From assembly GCA_021787475.1 (NCBI GenBank), contig JAJYLW010000003.1, positions 7,728 through 71,727 of the forward strand: a DNA stretch of 64,000 nucleotides, read 5' to 3'. Below, piece after piece: positions 24,741-27,692 of this stretch. The notes below the pieces were generated by a model. The model ran no database searches. It was not told the DNA's origin and saw nothing but the letters and a program-made list of their open reading frames with translations. A program made the position numbers and the translations under genes. This stretch comes from Actinomycetes bacterium. GTDB taxonomy: Bacteria; Actinomycetota; Thermoleophilia; BMS3ABIN01. The stretch's first letter is position 1. Every line of letters starts with the position of its first letter.

Positions 24741-25238
24741 ATGGTTTTAAAAAATGAAAAACACCTCTCTGTCAATCCACAGACCGAAACGAAAATTCTG
24801 GTTAGCGGCTGCCTGGCCGGGTATCGATGCAGCCACGACGGCGGGGGGCGCCTTAGTAAAAAGGTCCGGCGGCTGGTTGACGAAGGCACAGCCATTCCCG
24901 TCTGCCCCGAACAGATGGCGGGCCTGACGGCGCCGCGGGAAACGGCCGAGATCGACGGCGCCGGTGGCGGCGCCGCCGTCTTGGGCGGAGAAGCACGCGC
25001 CCGGTCCCGCTCGGGGGAAGATCTGTCAGATATCTTCATCAAGGGGGCCAGGAGGACGCTTCAGCTTGCCCGCAAGCACAGCTGCCGTGCAGCAGTGCTT
25101 AAGGCCAGAAGCCCTTCCTGCGGCCGGGGGCAGATTTACGATGGCAGCTTCAGCGGCCGCCTGAGGGCCGGCAGCGGCGTCACCGCGGCTCTGCTGATGC
25201 GCGCCGGAATCGAGGTTTTGACTGATGAAGAAATATAA
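24741..25238 (+). CDS. DUF523 family protein (YbbK-like)
   Basis: 165 residues. Family blocks: LVSGCLAGYRCSHDGG, PVCPEQMAGLTAPRETAEI and LKARSPSCGRGQIYDGSFSG, followed by TAALLMRAGIEVLTDEE. The conserved Cys residues suggest metal or iron-sulfur chemistry, but the reaction is unknown. An extra 15-20 residues lie before the first block. It overlaps the following PP-loop gene by 14 bp, so the two are a unit. Confidence 0.88.
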   Translation: MVLKNEKHLSVNPQTETKILVSGCLAGYRCSHDGGGRLSKKVRRLVDEGTAIPVCPEQMAGLTAPRETAEIDGAGGGAAVLGGEARARSRSGEDLSDIFIKGARRTLQLARKHSCRAAVLKARSPSCGRGQIYDGSFSGRLRAGSGVTAALLMRAGIEVLTDEEI

Positions 25239-26238
25239 GGCGATCGCATTGCTTTCCGGCGGGCTGGACAGCCGCCTGGCGGTGAAGATGATGCTCGACC
25301 AGGGCATCGAGGTGGAGGCAGTTAATTTTATCACCATTTTTTGTACCTGCACCGCCAAGAGCAGCTGCAAATCCGAAGCGCGCAAGGCGGCCGCCGATTT
25401 TGGCATCCCTCTGAAAGTGCTCAACGCCACCGATGAGATCCTGGCGGCGGTGCGCCGGCCGCAGCATGGCTTCGGCCGCGGTCTCAACCCCTGCCTGGAC
25501 TGCCGCATAAGCATGTTCCGCCGCGCCGGGCGGCGCATGCGGGAGGCAGGCGCTGATTTTATTGTCACCGGCGAGGTCTGGGGCGAGCGGCCAATGTCGC
25601 AGCGCCCCGACGCCATCAGCACCATCGAACGTGAATCAGGCCTCGAAGGCCTGGTCGTGCGGCCGCTGTCAGCCCACCTGCTCGGGCCCAGCCTGCCGGA
25701 GCGCAAGGGCTGGATCGACCGCGGCCGGCTGATGGCAATTTCAGGCCGCTCACGCAAACCGCAGATGCAACTGGCGGCGGAGCTGGGTGTGAATGATTAT
25801 CCCTGCCCGGCGGGTGGGTGCCTGCTTTGCGACCGCAACTTTGCCGCCCGCCTGCGGCTGCTGCTGGCGAAGAATCCGGAGCCGAGGATTGCCGAGATCC
25901 AGGCGCTCAAACTGGGGCGGCTGTTCATCTCCTCCGGCGGCGATAAAATCATCATTCCGCGCAACGAGGACGAGACAAAACGGCTGGAGGCCCTGGCGCA
26001 GCCAAGCGATATCATCATGAGCGCCGACGGCTTCATGGGCCCGACCACAATCATCAAGGACGGCAATGACGGCAGCATTGCGGAGGCGGCGGCGCTGACG
26101 GCGAGGTACGGCCAAGGCCGCGAGGAAGTATCGGTGACCGTCAGCTGGCGCATTGCCGGAACCGAGGAAGCCTCAGGTTCATTGACGGCTTCGCCGGCCG
26201 ACGGCAGGCGGCTGGCCGGCATGCTTGAGCGGCTATAA
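25225..26238 (+). CDS. PP-loop ATP pyrophosphatase with C-terminal NFACT-R-like domain
   Basis: 337 residues. The N-terminal PP-loop is ALLSGGLDSRLAVKMML; FCTCTAKSSCKSEA, NPCLDCRISMF and YPCPAGGCLLCD carry paired Cys as in tRNA thiolation (ThiI/MnmA/TtcA-like) enzymes. The C-terminus (about 220-300, IIIPRNEDETKRLEALAQPSDI) resembles the NFACT-R fold. A role in tRNA sulfur modification is likely by family, but the target is unknown. It overlaps the DUF523 gene, a pairing that suggests a shared pathway. Confidence 0.8.
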   Translation: MKKYKAIALLSGGLDSRLAVKMMLDQGIEVEAVNFITIFCTCTAKSSCKSEARKAAADFGIPLKVLNATDEILAAVRRPQHGFGRGLNPCLDCRISMFRRAGRRMREAGADFIVTGEVWGERPMSQRPDAISTIERESGLEGLVVRPLSAHLLGPSLPERKGWIDRGRLMAISGRSRKPQMQLAAELGVNDYPCPAGGCLLCDRNFAARLRLLLAKNPEPRIAEIQALKLGRLFISSGGDKIIIPRNEDETKRLEALAQPSDIIMSADGFMGPTTIIKDGNDGSIAEAAALTARYGQGREEVSVTVSWRIAGTEEASGSLTASPADGRRLAGMLERL

Positions 26239-26351: not shown

Positions 26352-26381
26352 TTGGCATTGGTCCGAAATAATAAGCATAAT
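26352..26381 (+). promoter_or_regulatory. Promoter of the candidate selenoprotein gene
   Basis: TTGGCA, 18 nt, CATAAT in an AT-rich stretch unlike its surroundings. It lies about 40 nt before the AGGAGG ribosome site, and shows that 26420-26746 is a transcribed gene and not the tail of the PP-loop operon. Confidence 0.6.
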
Positions 26382-26419
26382 AATAAGGGTTAAGGCAACA
26401 TGCAACGAGGAGGAAGTTG

Positions 26420-26746
26420 GTGCAATCTTTGATCCCTGTTTTTGGCTCGCGCTATCTCGATTCCTGCTCCGGCGGCTGAGGGCCGAGCTGGTCTCTGGAA
26501 GAGGTCACCGAAACTATCAACCGGCAACTGGCTCACGACCTTGAGGAAGGCGCCCGGCTGCGTTATATCGATTTCGATTCCCAGGACCTTGCCGAGTACC
26601 CGGAAGTGCGGCGGCAGGTGGAGCAGGGCTCTCTTGAGCCAGGAGCCATCATGATCGAAGGCAAGCTCGTTAACATCTGGGAGATTTCCTACACGAAGCT
26701 GCTGGCGGAGTTCGAGCGGCTGGGGGCGAAAACCAGTAGCGTTTAA
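26420..26746 (+). CDS. Candidate thioredoxin-fold selenoprotein with in-frame TGA (codon 20)
   Basis: GTG 26420 stands 6 nt after a perfect AGGAGG (26408-26413). The frame runs 108 codons to TAA at 26744 with a single TGA at 26477-26479. Codons 1-19 read VQSLIPVFGSRYLDSCSGG; after TGA, GPSWSLEEVTETINRQLAHD and on to AIMIEGKLVNIWEISYTKLL. TGA sits where thioredoxin-like proteins have the first Cys of CGP, so translation gives CSGG-Sec-GPS. The fold order (strand, redox loop, helix, RYIDFD strand, GAIMIEGKLV strands) fits a small thioredoxin-like protein. The part after TGA has no good start of its own. A hairpin at 26490-26506 fits a bacterial SECIS. A nonsense-mutated pseudogene is the alternative. 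Confidence 0.7.
26490..26506 (+). promoter_or_regulatory. SECIS-like hairpin after the in-frame TGA
   Basis: GGTCTC pairs with GAGGTC (two G-U pairs allowed) around loop TGGAA. The loop begins 16 nt after the TGA and contains GG, as expected for a bacterial selenocysteine insertion element, where an apical-loop G lies roughly 16-37 nt downstream. Folding was done by eye only. Confidence 0.5.
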
Positions 26747-26749
26747 ACA

Positions 26750-26838
26750 GGGGACATGACCCAATTCCCGAAGGAAATTGGGATCGTGTCCCCGAGTTTC
26801 AACAATTTCTGAAGGAAATTGGGGCCGTGTCCCCGAGT
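26750..26838. repeat. REP-like GGGGACATGACCC inverted repeat, copy 1
   Basis: GGGGACATGACCCAATT pairs imperfectly with AAATTGGGATCGTGTCCCC, then a second half-copy (AATTTC..GAAATTGGGGCCGTGTCCCC) follows after GAGTTTC. A very similar tandem is at 32159-32238. It lies between converging genes and may act as a terminator. Confidence 0.75.
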
Positions 26839-26840
26839 TT

Positions 26841-27692
26841 CTATTTAATTCGCTTCAGCAGCACCGGCACCTCCGCCTGCATTAAGATTCCTTTCACCGT
26901 AGCCGCCCGCTTGCCCTCCATCCGCCCGTGCCAGACAAGGGCGATCAGGTCTTCGTGGTTCTCCCTGGCGAAGGCAAGCGTTTCCTTGACCGTGTCTCCC
27001 GTCTGGTACACAAGCCTCACTCTGGCCTCCGGCTGGCGGGTAGCGAAACGGCGCATGAACTCGTCGGCCCATCCGGACCAGTCGTAATGAGGCCGGTCAA
27101 GGTACCGCGGGGCGGTGAAAGCACCGACTTCCACCGGCTGGCGGGCGCCGGCCGCTACGTGAAGGACGTCGATATCCGCTCCCATCAGCCGGGCTAGATT
27201 AAAAACCTGATCAACTTCCCTGGCCGTAACCGGCGAGCCGTCGTGCGGGATGAGCATCCGCGCCGGCTGCCAGTCGTGGCCGGGCATGCCCTGCCTGAGC
27301 GGTCGCAGAATCATCAACGGTATATCACACTGCTGGATGACGGCCATGGCGACGCTGCCGGCGACGAGGCCGGCATTGTGCGTCCGGCCGTGGCTGGACA
27401 TGACAATCATGCTGACGTCGAGGCGGGTGCCAAGCTCCAGGATAACATTGGCGACCTCGCCGGCAGACTGATGGAAGACAATCTCTTTCGCGTGCGCCGG
27501 TCCCAAATTGAGAAATTCCGCCAGCCGCTCTTCCGGAAGCGCCTCGTCGGTGACGTGCACGACGTGCAATGATACCTGAAGCAGCCGCGCCATCGCTTCG
27601 GCGGCGCCAAAGGCGCAGGCAGCGGTGCGGGACCCGTCCAGAGGGATGATGATCGCCCGTTCGATACCACTACTTTCAGGATAATCTGTCAA
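26841..27692 (-). CDS. Tandem universal stress protein (two UspA domains)
   Basis: 283 residues with two Usp units. The first (about 10-130) has IIIPLDGSRTAACA and VMSSHGRTHNAGLVAGSVA with the ATP-binding pattern GxxxGS(V)A; the second (about 143-281) has MLIPHDGSPVTA and ALVWHGRMEGKRAATVKG, less complete. It starts by an ATGA-type 4-bp overlap with the end of the HAD-GH65 gene, so both are on one transcript. The role is stress tolerance by family; details are unknown. Confidence 0.92.
   Translation of the reverse strand: MTDYPESSGIERAIIIPLDGSRTAACAFGAAEAMARLLQVSLHVVHVTDEALPEERLAEFLNLGPAHAKEIVFHQSAGEVANVILELGTRLDVSMIVMSSHGRTHNAGLVAGSVAMAVIQQCDIPLMILRPLRQGMPGHDWQPARMLIPHDGSPVTAREVDQVFNLARLMGADIDVLHVAAGARQPVEVGAFTAPRYLDRPHYDWSGWADEFMRRFATRQPEARVRLVYQTGDTVKETLAFARENHEDLIALVWHGRMEGKRAATVKGILMQAEVPVLLKRIK

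Follow-up and report, generated by a model that had tools for sequence, protein, structure and literature searches.

A putative thioredoxin-fold selenoprotein family related to YuzD and ArsD, widespread in Actinomycetota and apparently uncatalogued

The locus and its reading frame

Here, we describe a gene at positions 26420-26746 of the forward strand of a 64,000-nucleotide stretch of DNA (the whole of which we call the window) that is predicted to encode a selenocysteine (Sec)-containing, YuzD/ArsD-like protein of the thioredoxin fold. The gene runs for 108 codons from a GTG start to a TAA stop, and its sole in-frame TGA is codon 20 (26477-26479, forward strand). The only cysteine of the product, Cys16 (26465-26467, forward strand), lies four residues N-terminal to the TGA-encoded position, so that the protein reads VQSLIPVFGSRYLDSCSGG-U-GPSWSLEEVTETINRQLAHDLEEGARLRYIDFDSQDLAEYPEVRRQVEQGSLEPGAIMIEGKLVNIWEISYTKLLAEFERLGAKTSSV. 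An AGGAGG ribosome-binding site (26408-26413, forward strand) precedes the GTG by 6 nt. Frame, TGA and ribosome-binding site are present as claimed in a preliminary description of this DNA, which had also given the gene its own promoter and had denied the part distal to the TGA a start of its own. For the promoter, a consensus scan returned a sigma-70-like match, TTGGCA-18-CATAAT (26352-26381, forward strand, 10/12 positions), but chance alone predicts 0.4 such sites in the region scanned, against the one found. As to the distal part, internal ATG, GTG and TTG codons do occur there, although none resembles the start of the 26420-26746 product.

Two genes precede the Sec gene on the same strand. 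The first belongs to the 2-thiouracil desulfurase family (DUF523; 24741-25238, PF04463 with E = 1.2e-39) and is a Cys form without TGA; the second, directly upstream of the Sec gene, encodes a ThiI/MnmA-like PP-loop ATPase with an NFACT-R_2 domain (25225-26238; PF02568, PF03054 and PF18297). On the other side, between the Sec gene and a convergent universal-stress gene, positions 26750-26842 hold two near-copies of a stretch AATT..GAAGGAAATTGGG..GTGTCCCCGAGTTTC, one of which scores terminator-like.

A putative bacterial SECIS (bSECIS) helix follows the TGA at 26489-26507 of the forward strand, its 7 bp being capped by a pair U26496-A26500 that closes the GGA apical loop. It is made up of UGGUCUC (26489-26495), the loop UGGAA (26496-26500) and GAGGUCA (26501-26507); the hairpin begins 9 nt and its loop 16 nt after the TGA. 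Its folding energy is -4.7 kcal/mol (z = 0.74), no better than chance, and in a longer stretch around it the minimum-energy structure is another fold. Across the window, moreover, 107 frames are joined by a TGA in the same way, counting those with no fewer than 18 codons ahead of it and 80 behind it, and a loose SECIS-like pattern matches 18 times. Because of these numbers and the weak hairpin, the window alone is insufficient: taken by themselves, its TGA-split frame and hairpin are no better than chance, and the proof is comparative.

Conservation of the TGA, the hairpin and the Sec machinery

About 98 Actinomycetota genomes contain homologues with a TGA at the position of codon 20, some of them only about 20% identical. 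The gene is present in 26 of 99 related genomes, that of the window included; every copy has a single TGA at this position, and the other copies are 32-88% identical. Two further groups with the gene emerged when 396 genomes of the phylum were searched with a profile. In a second class, 62 of 149 genomes carry it, all with the TGA (30 of these loci were read individually), and a third class has the main family, again with the TGA, in 10 of 36 genomes; a peptide-pattern scan of genome contigs returned only two close relatives. The TGA thus stands at this codon independently in relatives, which disposes of the sequencing error or frame change that the preliminary description had named as a possible refutation. 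It had also staked its reading on Cys or Sec homologues aligning at codon 20, and both kinds are found.

Of the 49 members in the alignment, 48 have Sec and one has Cys in the Sec column. The sole plain Cys homologue found (loci L103/L125 of genome G321, with the motif CNIC-GSF) places its Cys in this column, as does the YuzD structure discussed below (PDB 1xg8); such Cys homologues exist, but are rare and distant. In most members there is just one further Cys, located 4 or 5 residues N-terminal to Sec, and a pre-Sec Cys is present in 46/49. L027 and L028 are without any Cys and L029 is without Cys before Sec; in these three, W or S/T/R replaces the pre-Sec Cys while Sec is kept. Spacing also differs, with CxxxU in the window versus CxxxxU in many relatives. 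Since the spacing varies and three members lack the pre-Sec Cys, the alignment identifies Sec, and not the Cys-Sec pair, as the invariant of the family.

Estimates of dN/dS for the part downstream of the TGA, where they could be made, all fall at 0.05-0.30, and dS mostly exceeds 0.7. By this measure the part after the TGA evolves as protein, which argues that the downstream half is translated and under selection.

Is the hairpin a bacterial SECIS, as had been proposed? Its NGGNN loop geometry is kept in the family, and among 19 distinct hairpins the fraction of paired cells is 97.4%. Covariation in these 19 hairpins is 0.513, as against 0.221 for shuffled sequences (reached in 0/500 shuffles) and 0.04-0.18 for slid controls; the shuffle control leaves the relatedness among the sequences in place. 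The N-N pair closing the loop varies between U-A, C-G, A-U, G-C, G-U and U-G, and loop changes accompany amino-acid changes (SLEE, SPEE, SPAE, SQAE, SRAE). One locus, L088, has a variant loop, CUGAG. The hairpins of four relatives fold at -10.1 to -13.1 kcal/mol. The NGGNN loop with these closing pairs fits the published bSECIS model (PMC13188914); the energy cut-off of that model, -7.5 kcal/mol, is one that the window hairpin, at -4.7, fails, but this value is a search threshold and no definition of selenoproteins. The stem, the G in the first two apical-loop positions and a loop lying 16-37 nt from the UGA do satisfy the bSECIS criteria. We conclude that the family hairpin, as judged by comparison, is rightly matched to a bacterial SECIS on the strength of its covariation and geometry, while the window's own folding energy lends no support.

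These comparisons also bear on the reading of the locus as a dead gene or chance frame, in which the TGA would be a true stop and the downstream frame a decayed remnant. The 107 TGA-joined frames of the window do show how abundant such frames are by chance, but a remnant would not be expected to keep its TGA in about 98 genomes, a dN/dS well below 1, a covarying hairpin and homology to YuzD. We consider this reading extremely improbable and have rejected it as already refuted by conservation.

The genome of the window encodes the complete Sec machinery, the presence of which had been left to be checked. The genes selA and selB and the tRNA-Sec (69.4 bits) are clustered on one contig (C35), and selD lies on another (G000:C16:35112-36044) and contains one in-frame TGA itself, so that SelD is probably a selenoprotein too. 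Across the related genomes, the gene is present in 26 of 66 with SelA and in none of 33 without (p = 3e-6). In the second class it is likewise tied to SelA (p = 3e-6), with 11 exceptions: no SelA match was found in 11 of the 62 gene-bearing genomes, only 3 of which gave a strong tRNA-Sec match. Weak tRNA-Sec matches of 45-51 bits were excluded from these counts, because the genome of the window has a background match of 49 bits. The exceptions comprise G484, G486, G498, G549 and seven others, and several of them are incomplete. Assembly gaps are the likely cause, though this is unproven, and G484, rated 98% complete, remains unexplained.

An in-frame TGA would also be seen if TGA were reassigned genome-wide (a Trp or Gly code) or were read through without Sec. 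Several neighbouring genes nevertheless terminate at TGA, the homologous residue is Cys and neither Trp nor Gly, and the Sec machinery is present; we have rejected this explanation on these grounds and regard it as the least credible of those considered.

It is the comparison with relatives that decides for a selenoprotein. Since SelA, SelB, SelD and tRNA-Sec are encoded and the SECIS covaries, Sec is most likely inserted at the UGA of codon 20, after which the ribosome would continue to the TAA. In the absence of selenium labelling or peptide data, we hold it to be highly probable, from sequence evidence, that the gene at 26420-26746 is a decoded thioredoxin-fold selenoprotein. Ordinary gene calling misses the gene because the TGA is read as a stop.

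Fold, gene neighbours and possible function

The window protein alone gave nothing useful in Pfam and NCBIfam scans, with no match to PF07315; a vWF_A match at E = 0.11 was rejected as chance. A PDB profile search with a narrow alignment (A1) likewise found no match. The profile of a wider alignment (A4), when searched against the PDB, recovers the Staphylococcus aureus YuzD structure 1xg8 with E = 1.4e-7, and the second Cys of the YuzD motif CASC aligns under Sec. At an E-value limit of 0.1, 29 of the 49 members match DUF1462, the YuzD family, the best of them with 6.1e-9. ArsD is matched weakly, by 15/49 members for the Pfam model (best 1e-3) and by 3 for that of NCBIfam. An AlphaFold2 model of the protein reaches a pLDDT of 88.8, with the active-site loop less certain. 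In Foldseek, 1xg8 has the best query-normalised TM score among the listed matches (0.59) and the ArsD structure 3kgk scores 0.57 by target length; E-values are weak, the best being 0.026. DUF1462 and ArsD had earlier been assigned to the thioredoxin-like clan (PMC3091736). The thioredoxin-like fold put forward in the preliminary description is therefore supported by family profile and predicted model together. As the family does not keep the CxxC of 1xg8, we file it as a relative of YuzD/DUF1462 rather than a member, a Sec variant of the YuzD/ArsD superfamily.

Other YuzD-like genes with an in-frame TGA were encountered along the way. A second YuzD-like family, found in the class of genome G283 (L126, L127, L129, L130, L131, L132 and L135), has a conserved TGA after PSG or RSG in the motif VVYTTVPSG-TGA-SSSGPAGSCG, with one TGA in 9 of the 10 places found. 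Several of its loci have a short nearby hairpin with an NGGNN loop, such as CAGC-AGGUA-GCUG, and it is probably another uncatalogued selenoprotein family. Separately, a DUF1462/ArsD-like gene in genome G321 (L099 1430-1780; L124, G321:C6) contains an in-frame TGA in the context GAGAGG-TGA-GPVCEPADCGPA, with a hairpin CCCGC-GGACU-GCGGG about 20 nt after it. The operon of this gene comprises an ArsR-like gene, two ArsA ATPases and an ACR3-type permease.

The neighbours of the Sec gene differ between clades. In a second clade, 10 of 11 loci have a thioredoxin gene (WAPWCGPC) immediately before the Sec gene, the Cys-less L027 and L029 among them, and in 8 loci an FmdB-type zinc ribbon follows downstream. 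A two-cluster ferredoxin takes the directly upstream place in 23 of 30 loci of a third clade and is found upstream in 6 of 7 loci of a fourth. Neither thioredoxin nor ferredoxin adjoins the Sec gene in the clade of the window. The thioredoxin and ferredoxin neighbours suggest a redox relay. At L110 and L111, genes for an FmdB-type zinc ribbon, a CcmH-like protein and a [NiFe]-hydrogenase-like small subunit (the latter two names assigned by eye) follow the thioredoxin-Sec pair, hinting at a link to hydrogen metabolism.

How might such a protein work? The product would be a 12-kDa thioredoxin-fold protein with Sec in a flexible loop before helix 1, at the YuzD Cys position. We infer that Sec acts as a redox nucleophile attacking an oxidised substrate, no substrate being known, and that the single upstream Cys (CxxxU or CxxxxU), in members that have it, then resolves the bond so formed; alternatively, a partner thiol would do so directly. 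Cys16 of the window protein is likely a resolving or co-ligand residue, and the persistence of a thioredoxin gene next to Cys-less members is consistent with a partner that resolves the bond directly. Electrons would probably come from the thioredoxin of the same operon in one clade and from the two-cluster ferredoxin in others; for the window's own clade, this donor step is borrowed from its relatives. The electron-relay role, taken alone, is inferred from the fold and the operon partners, and we favour it only slightly over its not holding. The label of a CxxxU redox protein in the preliminary description is accordingly borne out only in part: it fits the motif of the window protein, but in the family the spacing is three or four residues, three members have no such Cys and the redox role is only inferred. 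A more specific proposal is that of a hitherto uncatalogued, almost exclusively Sec-using family, nearly devoid of Cys forms and distributed over several classes of Actinomycetota, whose single Sec, in some members without any Cys in the protein, takes its electrons straight from the adjacently encoded thioredoxin or ferredoxin and forms a Sec electron carrier with a dedicated donor; this we put forward tentatively, as somewhat more likely to fail than to hold.

The main rival likens the selenoprotein to ArsD, as a chaperone or sensor of metal(loid)s in which Sec and the upstream Cys would serve as soft ligands without any electron relay. The motif Cys-x4-Sec-Gly-Pro-Ser of one clade has the spacing of Cys13 and Cys18 in the ArsD motif, ArsD profiles are weakly matched as given above, and the TGA-bearing relative in G321 lies inside an ars operon. 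That context was found only for this separate relative, L099, and no ars genes were seen beside the Sec gene in the window or in the main clades examined; the neighbours in other clades are thioredoxin and ferredoxin. ArsD moreover requires Cys12, Cys13 and Cys18 (PMC4562236), whereas Cys12 is without a counterpart in nearly all members, and three members keep Sec yet have no paired Cys. An ArsD-like role is therefore unlikely in our judgement, without being negligible.

The window itself points to a further possibility, namely a role in thiolated-base metabolism (tRNA-sulfur or selenium handling), in which the Sec protein would cooperate with the DUF523 and ThiI/MnmA-like proteins encoded upstream of it. 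In its favour is the order DUF523, PP-loop ATPase, Sec gene, and in all four relatives examined from the same family (L106-L109) the PP-loop gene again immediately precedes the Sec gene. Outside the window's own family, however, this order was not encountered, other clades having thioredoxin or ferredoxin instead, and 181 nt with a promoter-like site separate the PP-loop gene from the Sec gene. We rate such a role as clearly less likely than the ArsD-like one.

Relation to known selenoproteins and to YuzD and ArsD

A 2026 review counts 119 prokaryotic selenoprotein families and subfamilies (PMC13188914). DUF1462, YuzD and ArsD are absent from this catalogue, the family was not reported by deep-Sep (PMC12013277), the NCBIfam selenoprotein models had no match among the 49 members scanned, and literature searches returned no description of it; these did not cover a general protein database, so that an annotated copy is possible. 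The family thus apparently is a widespread and uncatalogued bacterial selenoprotein family, which would extend the 119 already catalogued (PMC13188914). In every genome the gene would be lost to standard gene calling, leaving the metabolism of these mostly uncultured bacteria to be interpreted without it. With its near-exclusive use of Sec, three members lacking the Cys and thioredoxin or ferredoxin encoded next to it, the family makes the benefit of selenium to a redox protein directly testable.

DUF523 is known in a Sec form elsewhere (deep-Sep, PMC12013277), but the neighbouring DUF523 gene has Cys and no TGA and is not the selenoprotein here. Known thioredoxin-like selenoproteins (PF13192 in the forms Sec.1, CxU, and Sec.2, UxC; SaoT; UXX-star; the HUIPC type; the VPGUxxT type) also carry Sec in an active-site motif, but their motifs differ from those of the present family. 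With ArsD (PF06953, NF033727; PDB 3kgk, 3mwh) the family shares the thioredoxin-like fold, Cys-x4-[Cys/Sec]-Gly-Pro-Ser in one clade and weak profile matches; it differs in that Sec is accompanied by one Cys only, with neither a vicinal Cys pair nor an ars operon in the window, and in that its sequence link to ArsD is much weaker than that to YuzD. YuzD/DUF1462 (PF07315; S. aureus SA0798, PDB 1xg8) is homologous at the level of the family profile, has a Cys where the family has Sec, is of similar length and resembles the predicted thioredoxin-like model. The family also offers a functional lead for YuzD/DUF1462, whose function is still given as unknown in Pfam. In YuzD, a CxxC (CASC) occupies the loop before helix 1, whereas the Sec family has CxxxU, CxxxxU or U alone.
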